Positions 12,709 through 21,467 of a stretch of DNA of 42,377 nucleotides are shown here, piece after piece. The notes under the pieces were generated by a model that worked only from the letters and a program-made list of their open reading frames with translations, searched no databases and had not been told where the DNA came from. Made by a program: the position numbers and the translations under genes. How positions within the stretch are numbered: position 1 is the stretch's first letter; the number at the start of each line of letters is the position of its first letter. The stretch is from Flavobacteriales bacterium (GTDB lineage: Bacteria; Bacteroidota; Bacteroidia; Flavobacteriales_D; Sanyastnellaceae), in contig CANFLZ010000019.1 of assembly GCA_947448135.1 (NCBI GenBank), positions 1-42,377 of the forward strand, read 5' to 3'.

Positions 12709-12942
12709 ATGCGACTAGTCAATCAAATACCACATCCACATTTGCGAATAGTTATTCATGAATACAATGGCAAATATTGGGTAGAGTTTGAGGGTGGTCG
12801 ATGCAAGCAGAATTTTAAATTTGATAAAGAACAATACGCATTGCCTGCGATTGAGCAATGGGTTCAAAATGAAATTCCTTTTGTCATGGATCGAATGAAT
12901 GCGATGCATGAAAATTTAAGGAGACTTACACCAGAATTATGA
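12709..12942 (+). CDS. Small conserved-looking hypothetical protein, 77 aa
   Basis: Soluble, no signal peptide. It reads as a beta-hairpin (HLRIVIHEYNGKYWVEFEGGR) followed by a helix (YALPAIEQWVQNEIPFVMDRMNAMHENLRRL). I do not recognise the family. Support for a real gene: its stop overlaps the next start by ATGA, it fills the space in a dense operon, and a -7 box sits 4 nt before its ATG. Confidence 0.55.
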   Translation: MRLVNQIPHPHLRIVIHEYNGKYWVEFEGGRCKQNFKFDKEQYALPAIEQWVQNEIPFVMDRMNAMHENLRRLTPEL

Positions 12943-13565
12943 AAAAAAACATAGTCATCATTTCAGTCTTAGCCCTTCAATTTATTTTGATTGGTTATTT
13001 GCTTTGGAAAACCAACGAGCCAACGGGTAAACCGGATTTGGAAAATGTTCCTGTTGCTTCTGCCTTTGTGGATACCGCTCATGTCAAGGCAGCTGTTGTG
13101 GCTTATATCAACGGAGACAGCATCAACTCGCAATATCAATTTATCAAGGACAAAGAGTCACAGTTGGAGAGCACTTTAAAGGGAGCGGATGCACAATTCC
13201 AAAAGGAATATGCCAAGCGAGAGAAAGAAGCGCAAGATTTGATTCAATATGCCAACAGCAAGCAATTGCCCGAAGATGAAGCCCGCACAGTTCAAGAGCG
13301 ATTGGCGCAGTTGGAAGGAGAGATACAGCAATTGGATACAAAGATGTCCAATGATATTTCTGTGAAGAAAGAAGCCATGATGAAAGAGTTGAACAAGCGC
13401 GTGGAAAAATACTTGGCCAAGTTTGCCAAGGACAAGAAAATAGATTTTGTATTGAATTACCAAGAGGGTATTCCAATTGTTTTGCATGGCAATGCAGCAT
13501 TCAATGTCACTGCAGAAGTTTTAGCGGGATTGAATGCCGAGTATGCTGCCGAAAAAGGGAAGTAA
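12939..13565 (+). CDS. OmpH/Skp-family periplasmic chaperone-like protein
   Basis: 208 residues. An uncleaved anchor or signal segment (residues 5-22) precedes a periplasmic part. AVVAYINGDSINSQYQF opens the Skp fold, a long charged coiled coil follows (~65-150, KEYAKREKEAQDLIQ, KEAMMKELNKRVEKYLAKFAK), and the domain closes with KIDFVLNYQEG. Skp/OmpH proteins hold outer-membrane proteins during transit. Bacteroidota carry several such genes and this one is outside the usual bamA cluster. It overlaps the upstream gene by 4 bp and the next gene starts 1 bp after its stop. Confidence 0.8.
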   Translation: MKKNIVIISVLALQFILIGYLLWKTNEPTGKPDLENVPVASAFVDTAHVKAAVVAYINGDSINSQYQFIKDKESQLESTLKGADAQFQKEYAKREKEAQDLIQYANSKQLPEDEARTVQERLAQLEGEIQQLDTKMSNDISVKKEAMMKELNKRVEKYLAKFAKDKKIDFVLNYQEGIPIVLHGNAAFNVTAEVLAGLNAEYAAEKGK

Positions 13566-13566
13566 G

Positions 13567-14115
13567 ATGTTATTGGCACAGCAGAAATATATAAACGGAG
13601 CAGCGGAGTATTTGCTGTTCATGTGGCAGATGGAAGATTTGTTGCGTGCCGTTCATTTTGATTTAGAAGCACTGAATGGATTTATCACTACCTATGCGAG
13701 CAGCGAGCAAGAGCATCAGCAGGAGAAGCAGTGGTATGAGCAAATGATTCGCAACATGCGTTCGGAGCGAATAGAGCAGCGTGGTCATTTGTCAGAGTTA
13801 GAAGAGTTGATGGTAGAATTGACCTATCTGCATCAGACCTTGTTAAAAGTGACCAAGCAAACCGATTATATTGCTTTGTATGAGGCGGCCAAGCCCAATA
13901 TGGAGGCGTATTCTTCTAAGGGGAAGGGATTTGGAACCAATGAAGTGGAGATGTGTTTGCAAGCCTTATATGGATTGTTGGTTTTGCGTCTCAAGCGAGA
14001 GACCATTTCGGAGGAGACCCAGCGAGCGATGGATAGTTTTTCAGCCCTTATGGCCGCCTTGAGTAAGGCATATTTTCAAATGAAACAAGGCGACCAACAA
14101 GCCGCCTTGAATTAA
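13567..14115 (+). CDS. DUF4924 family protein
   Basis: 182 residues from ATG 13567, 1 bp after the OmpH-like stop; the longer frame from 13534 would overlap it. The N-terminus AQQKYINGAAEYLLFMWQMEDLLRA is the signature of DUF4924, an all-helical Bacteroidota family of unknown function. Helices continue throughout, with no membrane segment. It is the last gene of the operon, followed by a hairpin at 14127-14151. Confidence 0.75.
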   Translation: MLLAQQKYINGAAEYLLFMWQMEDLLRAVHFDLEALNGFITTYASSEQEHQQEKQWYEQMIRNMRSERIEQRGHLSELEELMVELTYLHQTLLKVTKQTDYIALYEAAKPNMEAYSSKGKGFGTNEVEMCLQALYGLLVLRLKRETISEETQRAMDSFSALMAALSKAYFQMKQGDQQAALN

Positions 14116-14157: not shown

Positions 14158-14628
14158 TTATGAAAGAAGACTTTGTGTCAAAAGGAATTGCATTTGCTGA
14201 TTCTGACGATTCAATAATTCCAAATTTTGCTCATTTTCGAATTCTTGGTGGAAGCGCTCAGCAGCGTCAGCCACATGGTTGTTAAGTGCAGACAAGTTCA
14301 CAGGAACAGATATTACTCTAAAAGGGCGGCTATCATTTAAAAGAGATTCCCAATTCAAGTCGTTAGCGTTTTGAGCAACAAAAACAGCTTTTACTTGAGG
14401 GAATTGCATTTGAACAGATTGAAGGAATTCAGCACCAGAAGTGTTATCAAGGTATTGATCTACTACAAGCACTTGCACTTGTTCAGGAAGAAGAAGATCA
14501 AAAGCTTCAACAGCATTATTGGTAGTAAGAACTTCGAAGTTTTCGTTCAAAGTGTTTTTTACATCCGCTGCGAAAGAATTGTTTTGAGAAACTACCAAAA
14601 CTTTTGTTTGCGTGTTGTTTGATTTCAT
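14158..14628 (-). CDS. Degenerate receiver-like protein
   Basis: 156 residues from ATG 14628. An upstream in-frame ATG at 14742 adds 38 residues that overlap the leader and look non-coding. The fold reads as CheY-like: KVLVVSQNN, then VQVLVVDQYLD with Asp57 at the phosphorylation site, AVFVAQNA, and FRVISVPV. The acidic pair after strand 1 is Ser-Gln, the Thr/Ser switch position is Ala, and the conserved Lys before Pro is Ser. The C-terminus (EFENEQNLELLNRQNQQMQ) is a short Gln/Asn-rich coiled coil. It is probably a phosphorylation-independent pseudo-receiver. The leader contains a CAA repeat. Confidence 0.65.
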   Translation of the reverse strand: MKSNNTQTKVLVVSQNNSFAADVKNTLNENFEVLTTNNAVEAFDLLLPEQVQVLVVDQYLDNTSGAEFLQSVQMQFPQVKAVFVAQNANDLNWESLLNDSRPFRVISVPVNLSALNNHVADAAERFHQEFENEQNLELLNRQNQQMQFLLTQSLLS

Positions 14629-14813: not shown

Positions 14814-15200
14814 TTAAATAGGGTTAGTAAGGTTGTTGTTGATATTGGGAATAAGTTTTTGAATAATTTGAATAGAGTCGATATTGGATTGTTTGAGAAA
14901 CTGAAGGATTTGGGCATGTTGATCAAGCAGTAAGTTGATTTGATCATCGTGCGGTTTGAGGGAAGTTGTATTTTTTCGTTTTGGGTTATCGTATGGGGAT
15001 TCGTTTTCGTGCACCATGAGGACATTCATATGAACGTCGTAGATTTTGGATAGTTTTTTAAAGTCCTGGAGTCGAGCTTTTCTGAAACCGTTTTCGAGTC
15101 GGGAGTATTCGGGTTGTGAAATGCCCAGTTGATCGGCGACGTATTCTTGTTTAAGATCGTGCAGCATTCTAAACTCTCTGATTTTAGGGTAGCGAATCAT
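14814..15200 (-). CDS. XRE-family helix-turn-helix regulator
   Basis: 128 residues. The Cro/C1-type HTH covers about residues 5-60: IREFRMLHDLKQEYVADQLGISQPEYSRLENGFRKARLQDFKKLSKIY. The recognition helix is in ISQPEYSRLENG. The C-terminal half (HDDQINLLLDQHAQILQFLKQSNIDSIQIIQKLI) is a likely dimerising helix. Targets are unknown. The leader is A-rich and contains AACAACAAAACAAAAAACA just before the ATG. The gene is followed by its own strong terminator and lies just downstream of the PAS-like gene terminator, so it is monocistronic. Confidence 0.85.
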   Translation of the reverse strand: MIRYPKIREFRMLHDLKQEYVADQLGISQPEYSRLENGFRKARLQDFKKLSKIYDVHMNVLMVHENESPYDNPKRKNTTSLKPHDDQINLLLDQHAQILQFLKQSNIDSIQIIQKLIPNINNNLTNPI

Positions 15201-15305: not shown

Positions 15306-16412
15306 TTATGCAGAAATATCTGAAAGTGAATATAGAATTGATTCTACTTGAGGGGGGATTGGAATTATACCCATTTTTTTCGCATAATTGATAGCTTCAT
15401 AATCTCCAATAATTTCATCATTTAGTTCAGGACACCATGGTTTACAAACTAAAGAAAGTTTCGGCTTAATCGATTTATTTAGGTAGTCACCAATTTTATA
15501 TTCATCCAAATTAGAATTAATCTTGGCGTACTTGAGAATTTTTTCATTCATTGAAAAAGCAACGGACTTATTTCTGTCATTTTTGCTTCTTTCATTTAGA
15601 ATCAGGAGATATTTTACAGGAAAATCAATCAAAATACAGTTAATCAGATAGGCTAAATCATTCATAAAAAGAGATTGTTTGAATGAGGTTACGTAATGCG
15701 GCCTAACATAGTCAAAAAATGAAGGGTCAAACATTGTCCAAGTATCGAAGTGATATTTAGGGATACCTTCTTTTGTAGAGTCTAAAGGACTAATGTGAAG
15801 CTGAGATTTTTTTGAAATAGCAAGGCTGCCCAAATTTTTGATTTCTTCGATTTTTGAGCCTTCTGTGTTAATTCTAAATTTTATTATTTGATAGTCATGA
15901 TTACTTTGAAAAGTGAAGCCGGGAATTGAAAACAGTAAGTAAGAAATACCAGCCCATCTAATGAAATGCTGTAAATCTTCTTTAAAGATCAACGAATCAC
16001 CATCAGCACCTATTAATTTGTTTAGTTGAAAATTATCAGGAGAAATACCCAAGGATTGTTCTATTGAAGGGCTAATCCAAATGAATTTATTTTCTTCAAT
16101 ATTAAAGATTGATTGAAATTCATTTTTACTACAATAAAAATCATGCATTGAATCAACAAGCTGTGGAAGTGATTTATCCACTTCATAATTGGCCATTGCT
16201 CGAATCATCATTTGAAGCGACACAGACGCTGACTTGTTATTAATATCTGTTTTAATTAAATCGATTTTTTCAATGAATTGACTTAAATACTTTGCTACGG
16301 GCAGGCAAAGCGAAGGGTTTTTTGCAATTTCAATTTCAAGAAATTTAGACAAAGTTGATTTCCAATTGGTGAAGGCAACTTTTTGAATTTTGTTCGACTG
16401 GTTGTTTTCCAT
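15306..16412 (-). CDS. PAS-like protein without the usual HTH output, 368 aa
   Basis: The central part (about 95-190: SIFNIEENKFIWISPSIEQSLGISP, then EDLQHFIRWAGISYLLFSIPG and YQIIKFRINTEG) matches the PAS fold that precedes a LuxR-type HTH in many Bacteroidota regulators. The N-terminal ~90 residues are helical. The C-terminal ~170 residues contain no recognisable HTH and end in YAKKMGIIPIPPQVESILYSLSDIS. It is AT-rich like the divergent ThiF gene, with an 85-bp shared intergenic region, so the two may be functionally linked. A ligand-binding sensor or anti-regulator role is inferred. Confidence 0.55.
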   Translation of the reverse strand: MENNQSNKIQKVAFTNWKSTLSKFLEIEIAKNPSLCLPVAKYLSQFIEKIDLIKTDINNKSASVSLQMMIRAMANYEVDKSLPQLVDSMHDFYCSKNEFQSIFNIEENKFIWISPSIEQSLGISPDNFQLNKLIGADGDSLIFKEDLQHFIRWAGISYLLFSIPGFTFQSNHDYQIIKFRINTEGSKIEEIKNLGSLAISKKSQLHISPLDSTKEGIPKYHFDTWTMFDPSFFDYVRPHYVTSFKQSLFMNDLAYLINCILIDFPVKYLLILNERSKNDRNKSVAFSMNEKILKYAKINSNLDEYKIGDYLNKSIKPKLSLVCKPWCPELNDEIIGDYEAINYAKKMGIIPIPPQVESILYSLSDISA

Positions 16413-16485
16413 CTGTTTTTAATTAATGAACTTTTCTATGTTCAAAGGGATTTAAAAATGGACTATAAAAAGCCCAAATCATTTT

Positions 16486-16493
16486 GATCTTTG
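16486..16493 (+). promoter_or_regulatory. Possible -7 box of the ThiF operon
   Basis: GATCTTTG differs from TAnnTTTG by one base and ends exactly 4 nt before ATG 16498. No -33 element is evident. Confidence 0.25.
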
Positions 16494-16497
16494 AATT

Positions 16498-17544
16498 ATG
16501 AGTCCAATATCAGAAAATATTTTGTATTTTGAAACACCAAAGGACAAAGAAATACTAAAAAATTTCATTGATTTGAATGGGTGTGCGATTGTGGATTTAA
16601 TGCCATCAATGATAAATGAGTTGGTTTTAAATAAATTCCCGGGCATTTCTCTTGACGATACAAAGTTCAATTTTCTGAGAAATGAATTGATAGATGAGAA
16701 ATCGTCTCGAAGAGGGGGGGTATATGTTTATTACCCATGGAAAAACACTGCCTACAGAATTTTGGATGAAGAAGACTTCATTTTTTTGCGGACTCGAAGG
16801 AACTTTCCAAAAATTTTAATAGAGGAGCAAGAGTTTCTGAAAGAAAGAACGATTGGTATTATAGGCCTTTCAGTCGGCTATTCAGTGTTAATGTCTTTAG
16901 CGATAGAAAGAGTTGCCGGTCATTTTAAAATAGCAGATTTCGATAAAATAGAACTCACAAACTTAAATAGAATTTTTCAGCCAATTGGAAATATAGGTCT
17001 CAACAAGGCAGTAGCAGCGAGAAGGTCAATTCTAGAATTAGACCCCTATTTAAAAGTGGATATTTTTGAAGAAGGAATATCAAAGGAAAATATCGAAAAG
17101 TTTCTTATCGGGGATACAAAATTGGATTTGTTGATTGATGAATGTGATTCAGGAAGCGTAAAGTATTATTCAAGATTTTATGCTCGCAAGAATGCAATTC
17201 CTGTAATTATGGAAACTAGTGATAGAGGAGTTGTGGATATTGAACGATTTGATTTGGATCAGCAATACCCTCTATTGCATGGTAGATTCGATGAATTTGA
17301 TATTTCAAATACGGATGAGATGTCAAGAGAAATTTTATTGGCAGCTATAGATTTTTCAAAAGTTTCAGAAAGAGGGAAGCTATCAATGTCAATGATTGGT
17401 AAAGAGATTCGAACATGGCCTCAGCTCGGATCGGACGTGCTGAGTGGCGGGGGTACAGTTTCTATTGCCGCAAGGAAAGTACTCTTGAAACAAGAAATCA
17501 AAAGTCAAAGAAAATATATAGACATTGAGTCAAGGTTCGATTGA
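16498..17544 (+). CDS. ThiF/E1-like adenylyltransferase, Rv1355c type, without nitroreductase domain
   Basis: 348 residues. The Rossmann nucleotide loop is GIIGLSVGYSV (120-130). ADFDKIELTNLNR (146-158) is the E1 motif with the acidic pair and the Arg, LNKA holds Lys170, and DECDS is at 214-218. Conserved downstream stretches (ETSDRGVVDIERFDLD, LLHGR, WPQLGSDVLSGGG) resemble the mycobacterial Rv1355c family rather than MoeB or ThiF. There is no CxxC zinc site and only two Cys. Rv1355c-type proteins usually continue into a nitroreductase domain, which is absent. It presumably adenylates or activates a carboxyl substrate. The 3' end overlaps the acyltransferase frame by 20 bp. Confidence 0.7.
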   Translation: MSPISENILYFETPKDKEILKNFIDLNGCAIVDLMPSMINELVLNKFPGISLDDTKFNFLRNELIDEKSSRRGGVYVYYPWKNTAYRILDEEDFIFLRTRRNFPKILIEEQEFLKERTIGIIGLSVGYSVLMSLAIERVAGHFKIADFDKIELTNLNRIFQPIGNIGLNKAVAARRSILELDPYLKVDIFEEGISKENIEKFLIGDTKLDLLIDECDSGSVKYYSRFYARKNAIPVIMETSDRGVVDIERFDLDQQYPLLHGRFDEFDISNTDEMSREILLAAIDFSKVSERGKLSMSMIGKEIRTWPQLGSDVLSGGGTVSIAARKVLLKQEIKSQRKYIDIESRFD

Positions 17545-18265
17545 TATATCAGGTTTTTTAGCTGAGCAAAGGGAGGATGTAAATAGTATCCGAATACGTG
17601 CATTTCGGGCATCAAAAGACATGATTTCTTGTTTAAGATTTCAAGAAGGACATCTAGACGTTTTGCGCTCTTTTGGGTTCAAAGTTTCTAGTACTCAAGA
17701 AGATTGGATGCTTTCGGATAATGTATATGTCATTTTAGTTGAATCTCAAGACTCTTCAAAAGTATATGGAGGCGCCCGAATTGAAATATGTAATTCCGGG
17801 AGACAAGTTCCTATTCAAATAGCGTTGGCCGATTTAGCTCCTGAAATAAATGAATTTGTTTTTCAACAACGAGAAAGGAAGCTGGCTGAACTATGTGGCT
17901 TGTGGAATTCAGTTGCTGTGGCGGGATTAGGAATTGGAAGCGTCTATAGTATTCGAGCTGCAATTGCTCTTGCTTGTATTCTTAATTTGGAAAGTATGAT
18001 TGCGCTTTGTTCAGTTCATTCCTTTAAAATGGCTTCGAAATTTGGATTTGGATTGCTTAATTCAATTGGGGATTCAGGAATTGTCTATTATGAGGGGGCC
18101 AGACAAAATGCGCATATAACATTTCAGGAAAATCTTAAAGAACTGAAAGGTGTAGATCAATTAGAGATAGAAAAAATTCAAGGATTAGTGCGTAATCCAA
18201 TGCAAGTTGTATGGGAAGAAAGAAACGGGTCAAAAATGCAGATTAATTATGAGCTTGAAATTTAA
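17525..18265 (+). CDS. GNAT / autoinducer-synthase-like acyltransferase
   Basis: About 246 residues if started at TTG 17525, which overlaps the ThiF gene by 20 bp. The first in-frame ATG (17621) would cut 32 residues from the fold. YGGARIEI (81-88) is a central strand. AELCGLWNSVAVAGLGIGSVYSIRAAIALA (121-150) is the acyl-CoA-binding beta4-alpha3 unit with the GxGxGS pyrophosphate loop. CSVHSFKMASKFGFG (162-176) is the late helix-strand element. The layout is like FeeM/LuxI-type N-acyl synthases. The substrate is unknown. It is directly between the ThiF-like enzyme and a membrane histidine kinase, which suggests signal synthesis (inference). Confidence 0.6.
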   Translation: MSQGSIDISGFLAEQREDVNSIRIRAFRASKDMISCLRFQEGHLDVLRSFGFKVSSTQEDWMLSDNVYVILVESQDSSKVYGGARIEICNSGRQVPIQIALADLAPEINEFVFQQRERKLAELCGLWNSVAVAGLGIGSVYSIRAAIALACILNLESMIALCSVHSFKMASKFGFGLLNSIGDSGIVYYEGARQNAHITFQENLKELKGVDQLEIEKIQGLVRNPMQVVWEERNGSKMQINYELEI

Positions 18266-20345
18266 AAATTGGATATTGCTGTCCATTTTGGTTTTTTTAC
18301 CAATCTTCAAATGTTTTTCACAAGGCATTAAAATATTTTATTCAAGAACATCAGCCAACAATCAGAAGGCATTAACTCTAGATTCAATTAATGGCAATGT
18401 ATTAAGTCTTGGTATAGGAGGAACTCCATGTATAGGAAAAGTTGAGATTTCGAAACTGGATTTAAGTGTTGGCATATTTACTGTTTTCATTGATAATTCA
18501 TTGTTAGATGAGGTAGAGATTTATAAGGACTCTAGTTTTCAAAAATTAATTTATCGGGGAGGTCAATCATATCCGACACGATTTGATAATACAGGGTTTA
18601 GTTTTCAGTTGCCCAACATTGATGGGACATCTAAATTTTATTTTAAAATTAAAAGTGATGAGCAACTTATACTACCAATTCAGATTCATTATGACTATCT
18701 TGATTTTATTAAGCAAGAGATACAAAAGAGATCATTTTACTTTTTCTATTTAGGAGTAATGCTTGTTATGATTTTGTATAACATTTTTATTTTTATTACT
18801 GTTAGAGATAAAACTTATCTGAAATACGTGGCTTATGTAGGTTCAGTCTTATTAACCCAACTCGTTATAAGTGGATATGCTGATAAATATTTCTGGTTTA
18901 ATAACGGAGATTTGGGTCGCGTTATGTCAAGTTTTATCCCAATATTAAGTGGATTAACTACAGTATGGTTTTCAGTTGATTTTATAAGAACTAAGGAATA
19001 CTCTCCCAAGTTAAATAAGCTCTTAAATATATTTATAGGGCTTTATTTAATTTCCTTAATATTTATCTTTAGCAAGTATGCATATATCGGTCAATTGATA
19101 ATTAATTTTAATGCTTCTTGCGCACTTATTTTAATTCCCGCTTCTTTAAACGCTATTAAAAGTGGTTATAAGCCAGCTAAATTTTATCTTTTTGCTTGGT
19201 CTTTCTTTTTAGTAGGAGTCACTTTATATGCTCTAAGAAATTTAGGATTTTTACCATTCAATTCTTTGACAAATTACGCATTACCTGTTGGCTCAGCAAT
19301 TGAGGCAATCCTCCTCTCTCTTGCCCTCGCGGATCGTATCAATATTCTTAAAAGAGAAAAAGAGGCGTCGCAGGCGCAGGCGATTTTGATGATGGAGGAA
19401 AATCAAAGATTGATTCACCAACAAAACAATATGCTGGAAAATGAAGTGCAAACCAGAACGTCTGAACTTCAAGAATCAAATGCCAATCTGGAAAAAACAG
19501 TGCACAACCTGCAACTGACCCAAAAACAATTGGTGGAATCCGAAAAGCTGGCTTCATTGGGCCAAATGACAGCTGGAATCGCCCATGAAATCAATAACCC
19601 GGTCAACTTCGTCCGTTCAAATGTCCAGCCGCTCAAAAGAGATGTGGATGAACTACTCGAGGTAATCAATGAACTCAAAGAAAATGTAGCGCCTGATCAA
19701 CTGCCCCAAAAGTGGCAAAAAATGCTGGACAAATACAAAGAACTGGACATCGATTACCTGCAACAAGAAATTCATCAGCTGCTCCAAGGAATTGATGAAG
19801 GCTCCAAAAGAACTGCCGAAATTGTCCGTTCTCTCCGCGTCTTCTCAAGAATGGACCGAGATGTCCTGGTTATGGCGGATATCAATGAGTGCATCCAGTC
19901 CACCCTCATGGTGATGAAAAACATTACTTCTAAAGAATCAACGGTGATCACTGAACTTGACGAAAAATTGCCTCAAGTACTTTGCTTCCCCGGCAAATTA
20001 AATCAAGTGCTGATGAACCTTATTTCTAACGCTGTTCATGCTACCAAAATGGACAACCGATTGGCAGCGGATCGCAAAGTATGGGTGAAAACATTGAGCG
20101 ATGGTGACCATATTCAAATTACCATTCAAGACAATGGATCGGGAATGAAGGATGAAGTGAGAAAGAAAATATTTGATCCATTTTTCACCACAAAACAAGT
20201 GGGTGAAGGAACAGGATTGGGCCTTTCCATTGTCTTGGGTATCGTCCATGAACATGGTGGTGAAATAATTGTTGAAAGCGAGTGGGGGAAGGGCTCTTCA
20301 TTTATCATTACCTTGCCCAAGTCTCCTAAAATTATCAACGCATGA
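18249..20345 (+). CDS. 7TMR-DISM sensor histidine kinase
   Basis: 698 residues from ATG 18249 (TTG 18207 would lengthen the overlap). Signal peptide ~1-25, extracellular DISMED2-like beta domain ~30-150, seven membrane segments ~162-362, coiled coil ~365-430. The HisKA H-box is AGIAHEINNP with His446, the N-box is LMNLISNAVHA (588-598), G1 is DNGSG (628-632) and G2 is GEGTGLGLS (652-660). It should autophosphorylate on sensing an extracellular ligand, plausibly a small molecule or carbohydrate. It overlaps the acyltransferase gene by 17 bp and the receiver gene by 4 bp. Base composition jumps near 19320, between the membrane and kinase parts. Confidence 0.85.
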   Translation: MSLKFKNWILLSILVFLPIFKCFSQGIKIFYSRTSANNQKALTLDSINGNVLSLGIGGTPCIGKVEISKLDLSVGIFTVFIDNSLLDEVEIYKDSSFQKLIYRGGQSYPTRFDNTGFSFQLPNIDGTSKFYFKIKSDEQLILPIQIHYDYLDFIKQEIQKRSFYFFYLGVMLVMILYNIFIFITVRDKTYLKYVAYVGSVLLTQLVISGYADKYFWFNNGDLGRVMSSFIPILSGLTTVWFSVDFIRTKEYSPKLNKLLNIFIGLYLISLIFIFSKYAYIGQLIINFNASCALILIPASLNAIKSGYKPAKFYLFAWSFFLVGVTLYALRNLGFLPFNSLTNYALPVGSAIEAILLSLALADRINILKREKEASQAQAILMMEENQRLIHQQNNMLENEVQTRTSELQESNANLEKTVHNLQLTQKQLVESEKLASLGQMTAGIAHEINNPVNFVRSNVQPLKRDVDELLEVINELKENVAPDQLPQKWQKMLDKYKELDIDYLQQEIHQLLQGIDEGSKRTAEIVRSLRVFSRMDRDVLVMADINECIQSTLMVMKNITSKESTVITELDEKLPQVLCFPGKLNQVLMNLISNAVHATKMDNRLAADRKVWVKTLSDGDHIQITIQDNGSGMKDEVRKKIFDPFFTTKQVGEGTGLGLSIVLGIVHEHGGEIIVESEWGKGSSFIITLPKSPKIINA

Positions 20346-21028
20346 GCGAAAAAATAAAAATTCTCTACCTCGATGACGAGGAGAATAATTTAATTGCTTT
20401 CAAGGCATTGTTCCGTCGTGAATATGACGTTTTTACAACCACGTCTGCACGGGAAGCAGTGGCTTACTTGAATGAAAATGAGGTGCCGGTTATTTTATCG
20501 GATCAGAAAATGCCGGATATCTCGGGTGTAGAATTTTTTGAAATGATTTTACCAGATTTTCCAAGATCGGTTCGAATTCTGGTTACCGGATATGCTGATA
20601 TTGAAGCGGTAGTGAATGCCATCAACAAAGGTGAAATTTATCGATATGTCTCCAAACCCTGGGATGAGCACGATCTGAGAATTTGTATTAAAAATGCGAT
20701 CGAAAAATATCAAACGAGTTCTCAATCATCTTCGCTCCTTCCGGCTATTTGGAGCTTGATCGACGCAGACTCTTCATTGAAAACAATGTTGTCTAAACCT
20801 TCTTTGGCTTCGCTAGCAGTGATCTCCGTTTTCCTTTATGACGCTGAAAAAAGAGCTACGCTTTCTCAAAAAGATTTGCAGGCGCTGTTGAGAATCTTTG
20901 ATTGTAATATGGATACTTGGAATCGAAATGACATCGCTCAATTTGCTATCAAGTATTTGGAAAATCAAGGCAAGAATCCCGATATGCTGGAGGAGAAACC
21001 TGATCTGAGAATCCACTTCGACTTCTAA
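20342..21028 (+). CDS. Response regulator with unknown C-terminal domain
   Basis: 228 residues. The receiver is complete: Asp11/Asp12, phospho-acceptor Asp54 in LSDQKMP, Thr82 and Lys105-Pro106 (RYVSKPWDE), of the HupR/RpfG-like subtype. Residues ~125-228 form a helical region with no HTH, HD-GYP, GGDEF or LytTR motif that I can identify. It starts in an ATGA overlap with the kinase gene, so it is the cognate partner and receives phosphate from His446. The output is unknown, possibly protein-protein. Composition is like the bulk chromosome. A strong terminator follows the stop. Confidence 0.8.
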   Translation: MSEKIKILYLDDEENNLIAFKALFRREYDVFTTTSAREAVAYLNENEVPVILSDQKMPDISGVEFFEMILPDFPRSVRILVTGYADIEAVVNAINKGEIYRYVSKPWDEHDLRICIKNAIEKYQTSSQSSSLLPAIWSLIDADSSLKTMLSKPSLASLAVISVFLYDAEKRATLSQKDLQALLRIFDCNMDTWNRNDIAQFAIKYLENQGKNPDMLEEKPDLRIHFDF

Positions 21029-21078: not shown

Positions 21079-21441
21079 TTATGGTTTGTGTTCTTCTTTC
21101 TCTTCTTTCTTTCCTTCTTTGCAGCAAGATTTTCCCTCTTTCTTTCCTTCTTTACAACATGCTTTTCCTTCCTCTTTCTTTTCTCCAGAACAAGATTTTC
21201 CTTCTTCTTTTTTACCTTCTTTACAACAAGCTTTTCCTTCTTCTTTCTTTTGGTCTTTAGAACAACATGACTTTCCACCTTCGGATTTAGAACAAGAAGC
21301 TTTTTCATTGCTGCAAGAAGATTTCTCTTTTACAACATGTTCTTTCTTTTCTGTATTGTTATCTGTTGCATTGTTGGTTTGAGCAGAAACCATTCCGGCT
21401 GCAAAAATCATAAAAGCAAAAATTGCGATGAACTTTTTCAT
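21079..21441 (-). CDS. Secreted Cys/Lys/Glu-rich repeat protein
   Basis: 120 residues from ATG 21441. The ATG at 21462 lies inside the -7 box, so it is rejected. Signal peptide ~1-20 (MKKFIAIFAF...VSAQ). The mature part is low complexity and built from repeats of the type EGKACCKEGKKE, EGKSCSGEKKE and EGKSCCKEGKK. It has 11 Cys, many as Cys-Cys pairs, and otherwise mostly Lys, Glu, Gly and Ser. I do not recognise a named family. Metal binding in the periplasm or outside is plausible from the CC pairs but is inference. All long frames on the other strand here are low-complexity shadows. Confidence 0.75.
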   Translation of the reverse strand: MKKFIAIFAFMIFAAGMVSAQTNNATDNNTEKKEHVVKEKSSCSNEKASCSKSEGGKSCCSKDQKKEEGKACCKEGKKEEGKSCSGEKKEEGKACCKEGKKEGKSCCKEGKKEEKEEHKP

Positions 21442-21459
21442 AATCATAATGTATTTGAA

Positions 21460-21467
21460 CAAATATA
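21460..21467 (-). promoter_or_regulatory. -7 box of the Cys/Lys/Glu-rich gene
   Basis: TATATTTG on the minus strand, a perfect TAnnTTTG, predicts a leader of about 14 nt to ATG 21441. Confidence 0.5.

Follow-up and report, generated by a model that had tools for sequence, protein, structure and literature searches.

A putative N-acyltransferase, an exchangeable tailoring enzyme and a 7TMR-DISM histidine kinase form a conserved cassette in Bacteroidota that may make and sense a small molecule

Why should an adenylating enzyme and an acyltransferase be encoded directly ahead of a membrane receptor kinase? The question is raised by a locus of a Flavobacteriales bacterium of the family Sanyastnellaceae (GenBank assembly GCA_947448135.1, contig CANFLZ010000019.1), found within the 42,377-nucleotide stretch of DNA that was analyzed and that is referred to here as the window. 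Four plus-strand genes follow one another: a ThiF-like adenylating cyclase without an oxidase domain (16498–17544; PF00899, 1e-17), a putative N-acyltransferase of predicted FeeM/LuxI fold, P0003 (17525–18265, TTG start), a 7TMR-DISM sensor histidine kinase (18249–20345), and a receiver protein (20342–21028; PF00072, 3e-17). An initial annotation of the locus had read this chain as resembling a complete make-and-sense circuit, and the open reading frame (ORF) coordinates agree with the overlaps of 20, 17, and 4 bp and the 85-bp divergent intergenic region (16413–16497, presumed promoters) that it reported. Two gene starts are putative: the TTG of the acyltransferase is the sole in-frame ATG, GTG, or TTG ahead of the conserved region, and the kinase has an alternative upstream TTG at 18207. 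On balance, we lean toward a cassette that makes a small molecule and senses the same molecule with its own kinase.

The cassette was followed through whole-genome samples within Bacteroidota, drawn from the phylum (296 genomes), the class (395 genomes), and the family of the window (81 genomes), with other loci designated by L numbers. A ThiF-profile scan of named genomes confirmed at least 564 stretches, of which the best 80 form a further set, 72 of them with sufficient flank; this selection biases the named set toward the kinase-linked query. The phylum sample contains the acyltransferase in 12 genomes and ThiF in 11, all within those 12; near the acyltransferase of the 11 loci outside the window's own genome, a kinase and a receiver are present in all 11 and ThiF in 10. 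In the class sample, the acyltransferase is found in 76 genomes, ThiF in 70, and both in 67. The kinase sensor lies within 4.5 kb of the acyltransferase, on the same strand, in 74 of the 76, such that a synthase and its putative receptor are encoded together; the two exceptions are L224 and L185, the contig of the latter stopping within the acyltransferase gene. Because of this count, and because the window's own genome (96% complete, 2.5 Mb) encodes just two 7TMR-DISM domains in total, the adjacency of kinase and acyltransferase is more than chance.

ThiF adjoins the acyltransferase in 63 class genomes, 62 of which also have the sensor, and all three genes occur together in 62 of the 70 ThiF-positive genomes; four of the other eight are at contig ends. 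ThiF is on another contig and the acyltransferase locus at a contig edge in L167, L204, and L215, it is elsewhere in genome G560, and it lacks an acyltransferase match at L225, L226, and the contig-edge L227. At L182, the acyltransferase and sensor locus of G560, the two genes are direct neighbors and lack a tailoring enzyme in between or on either side, the ThiF of that genome being on another contig. In the window's family, ThiF is present in 72 of the 81 genomes (42 of the 46 more complete ones), and the 20 loci examined, from 15 genera of the ThiF-positive genomes, all contain ThiF, acyltransferase, and sensor. The 72 well-flanked named loci contain the acyltransferase (71), the sensor (68), a receiver-kinase (67), and the oxidase (35), and named carriers include Chitinophaga, Pedobacter, Mucilaginibacter, Daejeonella, Dyadobacter, and Algoriphagus. 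The gene order that the initial annotation had singled out as a candidate new cassette thus recurs, many genomes carrying it in full, and within Bacteroidota its ThiF and acyltransferase homologues are usually accompanied by a sensor kinase. The whole cassette was also observed in a metagenome bin named Azovibrio restrictus (L122), probably a misbinned Bacteroidota contig.

The acyltransferase and the kinase are the most constant pair of the cassette. Gene order varies, with either the acyltransferase or ThiF first, and so does the occupant of the tailoring slot. Among the 76 class loci, this slot is filled by ThiF alone in 22 and by ThiF with an oxidase in 41; two loci have an oxidase at the edge of the contig, 7 have a class I S-adenosylmethionine methyltransferase, and 1 has an ICMT-like enzyme, and in 3 (2 at contig edges) no occupant was found. 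The class I methyltransferases, which match UbiE-type among other methyltransferase models, are encoded between acyltransferase and kinase, directly before the kinase, in all 7 loci. ThiF, listed initially as a member of the cassette, can itself be replaced by a methyltransferase. At L016:7706–8344 (minus strand), an ICMT-like methyltransferase occupies the slot of ThiF between acyltransferase and kinase.

If the kinase senses the product of the cassette, its sensor half is expected to track the tailoring enzyme, whereas the transmitter half and the acyltransferase need not. Tailoring labels were assigned from gene content, ahead of the trees. In a sensor tree of 74 rows, the 7 methyltransferase-linked sensors, which come from four families, form one clade (SH-like approximate likelihood ratio test, SH-aLRT, 99), and the ICMT-like row lies outside it. 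The acyltransferase tree of 76 rows requires four changes of type, at least 3 of them forced by strong branches; in a set of 62 rows, from which the window, L208, L221, and L224 were left out and in which one family was thinned to 4, five changes are required, and the approximately unbiased (AU) test rejects a single methyltransferase clade (p = 1.8e-17). A quick tree of 71 transmitter halves requires five changes for 6 methyltransferase rows. The three parts were also compared on a common set of 51 rows, which leaves out 11 loci, mostly long branches and including the methyltransferase row L207, as well as L183, which has no transmitter on its contig; with one family thinned to 4, it retains 5 of the 7 methyltransferase rows. 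On this set, the methyltransferase-linked sensors again form one clade (98/98; 97% of 200 bootstrap trees), the transmitter requires four changes, with one clade rejected by the AU test (p = 4.5e-9), and the acyltransferase also requires four.

Two loci, and probably a third, place the exchange within the kinase gene. In the transmitter tree, each of these three methyltransferase loci lies with ThiF-type members of its own family: L172 beside L175 (100/98), L189 with three relatives (100/98), and L186 beside L193 (80/85). In the sensor tree, the AU test rejects the grouping of L172 with L175 (p = 0.0023) and of L189 with its own family (p = 1.8e-5). The acyltransferases of L172 and L186 again stay within their own families in the corresponding tree, the former with L175 and L185 and the latter with L193; the remaining four methyltransferase rows belong to two families for which the sample includes no ThiF-type locus. 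Identities between L172 and L175 are 50% for the acyltransferase, 34% for the sensor, and 61% for the transmitter; between L172 and L189, which belong to two families and are both of the methyltransferase type, they are 34, 40, and 51%, respectively. From these trees and identities, it follows that L172, and probably L186, kept both the acyltransferase and the transmitter while the tailoring gene and sensor half lying between them changed jointly; L189 kept only the transmitter. The resulting kinase mosaic resembles pherotype exchange and is as product sensing predicts.

The ThiF-like protein of the window points to the type of chemistry involved. Its best match among 19 families is the Rv1355c family NF005901 (7e-102; second-best 2e-15). 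The match reaches 342 bits, below the cut-off of 476, and covers only positions 15–339 of 722, so that the protein falls short of the full-length family; it has the TrzS-branch ThiF cyclase domain of the Oxz/Tyz/Trz pathway and lacks the flavin oxidase. The oxidase half of NF005901 has no match at E 0.001 in the window's 96%-complete genome. In this respect, the window is one of the 22 of 63 class loci with ThiF beside the acyltransferase in which the oxidase is absent, the remaining 41 having it. Identity to the ThiF of nine other cassettes is 38–43%, and Cys216-Asp217, in the stretch ECDS, and other motif residues are invariant in 10 of 10 aligned cassette homologues. Judged from the motif, the Asp of ECDS would be the residue shown to matter in TrzS. 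Siderophore and molybdopterin roles were also considered as possibilities, the latter on an older, MoeY/MoeB-type naming. The window protein is best described, as far as its sequence goes, as the cyclase half of the Rv1355c/TrzS family without the oxidase. Rv1355c, known as TrzS, unites a ThiF cyclase and a flavin oxidase in one fused protein; it cyclizes N-acyl tryptophan and together with the N-acyltransferase TrzA yields N-acyl tryptazolones, cyclization preceding desaturation; the N-acyl oxazolones known so far derive from aromatic amino acids (PMC12856293). TyzACB operates in the same way, OxzAB is described as similar, and ThiF-superfamily enzymes adenylate carboxylates (PMC10404671). 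The carboxyl activation and acylation that the initial annotation assigned to the two enzymes are consistent with these characterized relatives (PMC12856293, PMC10404671).

The acyltransferase P0003 has no Pfam or NCBIfam family match, and sequence searches of the Protein Data Bank (PDB) returned nothing significant for it or for the divergently encoded PAS-like protein P0001. Foldseek comparison of its predicted structure (predicted local distance difference test, pLDDT, 85; predicted template-modeling score, pTM, 0.84) with the PDB gives a list headed by BjaI, a synthase of N-acyl-homoserine lactones (AHLs), and FeeM, a synthase of N-acyl amino acids, the latter with a template-modeling score by target of up to 0.78. 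VIA-align also places FeeM first (Z 16.5), yet ordinary GNATs tie within 1 Z, and the fold alone therefore cannot separate an acyl-chain transferase from an acetyltransferase. P0003 and all 12 members of A2 have no Pfam autoinducer-synthase match at E 1; LuxI-type AHL synthases thus have only the fold in common with P0003. When a profile of the acyltransferase family was run over 3343 ORFs, 109 scored at least 100 bits, and the next-best rows were TrzA-like genes of Rhodococcus (15.3 bits) and Nocardia (6.6 bits), the following ORF scoring 5.8. Comparison of the P0003 family with TrzA-like proteins by hhalign gives E 6.6e-5 and probability 64, where TrzA-like denotes position beside an Rv1355c homologue and the proteins compared are these rather than OxzA, TyzA, or TrzA themselves. 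A distant relationship between the P0003 family and TrzA-like acyltransferases is moderately supported by these comparisons.

Outside the genome samples, a pattern scan of viral contigs gave no P0003 relative confirmed by tblastn, and the plasmid records gave no tblastn match to the L014 acyltransferase at E 0.01. Two further arrangements of the acyltransferase were observed: L173:6338–7767 (plus strand) contains a tandem pair of acyltransferase genes within one cassette, and at L128:8001–9900, next to an intact sensor, the matches to ThiF and to the acyltransferase are each split in two, perhaps by frameshifts. On a Rhodococcus qingshengii plasmid (L135:2808–6956), a TrzA-like gene and an Rv1355c homologue lie beside a GGDEF gene; cyclic di-GMP genes also flank trzAS in Mycobacterium tuberculosis (PMC12856293). 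On a Streptomyces plasmid (L138:5128–8042, plus strand), a ThiF of the TrzS branch is followed by a gene for a beta-ketoacyl-acyl carrier protein synthase 3.

The kinase is a complete 7TMR-DISM histidine kinase, with a DISMED2 ectodomain, a 7TM region (18732–19337), HisKA, and HATPase; its Pfam matches (PF07695, 3e-44; PF07696, 6e-6; PF00512, 7e-7; PF02518, 1e-25) are all above cut-off. The receiver that follows it is without the HisKA-HATPase part that its homologue carries in many other loci, as in the REC-HisKA-HATPase protein at L014:12632–13720, and in 4 of the 20 family loci, the short type of the window matches best. Among the class loci, 65 of 76 continue with a receiver gene on the same strand, as do 19 of the 20 family loci and 68 of the 80 named loci. 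Some loci without one are truncated by the contig, such as the cut-off family locus L157; L163, L192, and L195 are not truncated. None of the receivers examined has a DNA-binding domain above cut-off.

A second, divergently oriented receiver-only protein, P0007, is encoded on the minus strand at 14158–14628 (longest ORF to 14742; Pfam Response_reg, 8e-8). Its receiver part looks degenerate by eye, lacking the late Lys as well as the first strand's acidic pair, and its C-terminal tail QMQFLLTQSLLS is similar to QLEFLLRQKLLS, the tail present in many homologues; it scores 64 bits against a profile built from 53 homologues of the named loci. The neighborhood of the acyltransferase includes a receiver-only protein, often divergent, in 67 of the 76 class loci, 13 of the 20 family loci, and 57 of the 80 named loci; the tail pattern is recognizable in 29, 7, and 52 loci, respectively. 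On this recount, in which the tail is far rarer in the class and the family, the case for the divergent receiver as a core part is weakened, and it is a usual, not universal, companion of the cassette.

How could these parts work together? In the reading that we favor, the acyltransferase would N-acylate an amino acid with a fatty acyl group, and the tailoring enzyme would then modify the N-acyl amino acid. In the window, ThiF would adenylate the carboxyl and close a ring, and the simplest product would be a saturated oxazolone because the window lacks the oxidase; in other strains, the oxidase would desaturate the product, or the methyltransferase would stand in for ThiF. The less polar product could reach the envelope and bind the ectodomain or the 7TM region of the kinase, and binding would alter the flow of phosphate to the receiver proteins. 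Strains would switch signal type by swapping tailoring enzyme and sensor half jointly. The broader proposal, to which we give a little less than even weight, is that these loci constitute a modular, chemotype-switching family of cell-to-cell signaling systems of Bacteroidota, with an N-acyl amino acid core, a signal type set by ring closure, desaturation, or methylation, and a sensor half exchanged with the tailoring enzyme.

The pattern seen for ThiF versus ThiF-oxidase loci is weaker than that for the methyltransferase loci. In 69 of the 80 named loci, the others being without a part, the sensor requires 6 changes, the acyltransferase 10, the transmitter 12, and ThiF 2; in the 51 class rows, the sensor requires 7, and transmitter and acyltransferase 9–10 each. 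Partial rank distance correlations in the named set are 0.26 for sensor and ThiF (0 of 999 permutations as high) and 0.00 for sensor and transmitter. Several other results weigh against product sensing. When the gene order is restricted to ThiF-acyltransferase-kinase (75 pooled rows, some left out or thinned), the sensor requires 9 changes, the acyltransferase 10, and the transmitter 12, of which 3, 6, and 7 are forced by strong branches; with the acyltransferase intervening, the sensor thus tracks oxidase state hardly better than the acyltransferase does. The transmitter-ThiF correlation in the named set, 0.39, is above that of sensor and ThiF. In the class set, the highest correlation is between sensor and acyltransferase (0.25; 0 of 999), followed by sensor-ThiF (0.14; 61 of 999) and sensor-transmitter (0.13; 20 of 999), and the pair order is unchanged when one family is thinned (0.18, 17 of 999; 0.12, 131 of 999; 0.09, 149 of 999). 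On the same side stand the 4 of 72 well-flanked named loci without the sensor and five actinobacterial plasmid records, of 13 matches and with incomplete gene tables, in which no histidine kinase is annotated beside ThiF, so that the chemistry does not require a kinase; in one plasmid record, L136, a "sensor domain-containing protein" is encoded about 5 kb from ThiF. The grouping of the L189 acyltransferase with another family and the lower constancy of the divergent receiver slightly reduced our confidence. Co-variation of the sensor half with the methyltransferase variant of the tailoring enzyme is nonetheless the outcome expected of the make-and-sense circuit in the initial annotation.

Other explanations account for part of these observations. 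The kinase may be an ordinary regulator of its operon that senses an outside cue, such as stress, with the acylated compound as an effector (an antibiotic, an antioxidant, or an envelope lipid). Sub-inhibitory antibiotics induced oxazolones in several proteobacteria, and the discussion of the same paper treats what these compounds do physiologically as a major unresolved question (PMC12856293); both points leave room for this explanation, as do the enzyme genes without an annotated kinase neighbor mentioned above. It is nevertheless unlikely, as a methyltransferase-type sensor half that tracks the tailoring enzyme, when the transmitter does not, would not be expected from a cue that has nothing to do with the product, and the lack of a DNA-binding domain above cut-off in the receivers examined also speaks against it. 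Quite unlikely, too, is that tailoring enzyme and sensor half travel together simply as DNA neighbors, in a recombination block and without matched specificity, with kinase and enzymes remaining parts of one operon. Since the methyltransferase gene abuts the sensor half in all 7 loci, transfer of a single block would give the same trees, which weighs against product sensing, and where ThiF is apart from the kinase, in the ThiF-acyltransferase-kinase order, the effect is not decisive. Against a simple block, the exchanged segment has its boundary within the kinase gene, where the sensor half meets the transmitter half, for L172 and L189 by the AU test and probably for L186, and in the named set, the sensor requires fewer changes between ThiF and ThiF-oxidase than the acyltransferase or the transmitter.

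A further explanation keeps signaling and alters the product, which would be an AHL or a similar compound: ThiF would activate the carboxyl of an N-acyl-homoserine and close the lactone, providing a LuxI-free route to AHLs. The predicted AHL-synthase fold of the acyltransferase and the adenylation of carboxylates by ThiF-superfamily enzymes (PMC10404671) would suit such a route. The methyltransferase variant, however, needs no lactone, and with the known N-acyl oxazolones deriving from aromatic amino acids (PMC12856293), we regard an AHL product as very improbable.

The PAS-like protein P0001 (15306–16412, minus strand) has no Pfam or NCBIfam match; its predicted structure (model of A4; pLDDT 83) has PAS-domain proteins as best Foldseek matches, weakly (E 4e-3) and with none at 0.001. 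Homologues of P0001 and of the XRE/HTH_3 regulator (14814–15200, minus strand; HTH_3, 1e-12) are found in the same 6 of 20 family loci, blastp finds no P0001 homologue in the 11 non-own phylum loci, and no PAS match exceeds 60 bits in 67 class regions. The PAS-like gene is therefore ruled out as part of the cassette core, in which the initial annotation had included it, and is a lineage-specific accessory, as is the XRE regulator, a neighbor that, like the divergent receiver, was absent from that annotation's list. Two overlapping OmpH-like genes, the first OmpH/Skp-like by eye, lie at 12939–14115 (plus strand), and at least one of them is near the cassette in 15 of the 20 family loci; the locus thus looks old in the family, and its low G+C (0.35 versus 0.42) is not favored as a mark of recent import. 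At 21079–21462 (minus strand), a 127-residue ORF has an apparent signal peptide followed by Cys/Lys/Glu repeats (CCKEGKKEEGK-like).

To our knowledge, Bacteroidota are generally held to lack LuxI/LuxR. Oxazolone-related chemistry is encoded beside a membrane receptor kinase in about one-fifth of the class genomes sampled (74 of 395), and this spread, together with that in the family (ThiF in 72 of 81), makes a signaling role directly testable in harmless genera such as Chitinophaga, Pedobacter, and Mucilaginibacter. If correct, the proposal would add a small-molecule signaling system to Bacteroidota, possibly a major extracellular one of the phylum, give a function to oxazolones and related lipids, link some 7TMR-DISM kinases to a class of ligand, and extend pherotype-like exchange to a lipid signal.

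The cassette can be compared with several known systems; among the papers listed from the open full-text literature, screened by title and abstract opening and with subscription papers and preprints outside its scope, none describing it was found. In vibrios, the LuxM/LuxN and CqsA/CqsS systems encode a small-molecule synthase beside its membrane histidine kinase, the same neighborhood as in the cassette, but use other synthase families and other sensor domains and have no interchangeable tailoring enzyme. Much as the cassette appears to do, TrzAS and TyzACB of M. tuberculosis and OxzAB of Pseudoalteromonas rubra combine a TrzS-branch ThiF cyclase with a FeeM-like N-acyltransferase, and in 41 of the 80 named loci ThiF carries a fused oxidase, a further likeness to TrzS. 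In contrast to these pathways, the window lacks the oxidase, the cassette adds a 7TMR-DISM kinase and a receiver, and its tailoring enzyme may be a methyltransferase; a histidine kinase is not mentioned in the main text of PMC12856293 or PMC10404671. The clusters for N-acyl tyrosines (stieleriacines, thalassotalic and kyonggic acids) contain an N-acyl amino acid synthase with ThiF, a nitroreductase, and sometimes a methyltransferase, one of which is UbiE-like, and the word kinase is absent from the main text of the paper describing them (PMC12479983). Like the cassette, ComQXPA of Bacillus pairs a highly variable N-terminal sensor half of the kinase with a conserved cytoplasmic half, and it has pherotypes and overlapping genes (PMC4008528). 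Its signal is a peptide, its hosts are Gram-positive, and its kinase has a different sensor. Both elements of the cassette have precedents, its enzymology being a variation on a known pathway and pairs of synthase and kinase having been described before; what appears new, and is not described for any of these systems as far as we found, is the combination of the two, its spread, and the matched exchange of the sensor.

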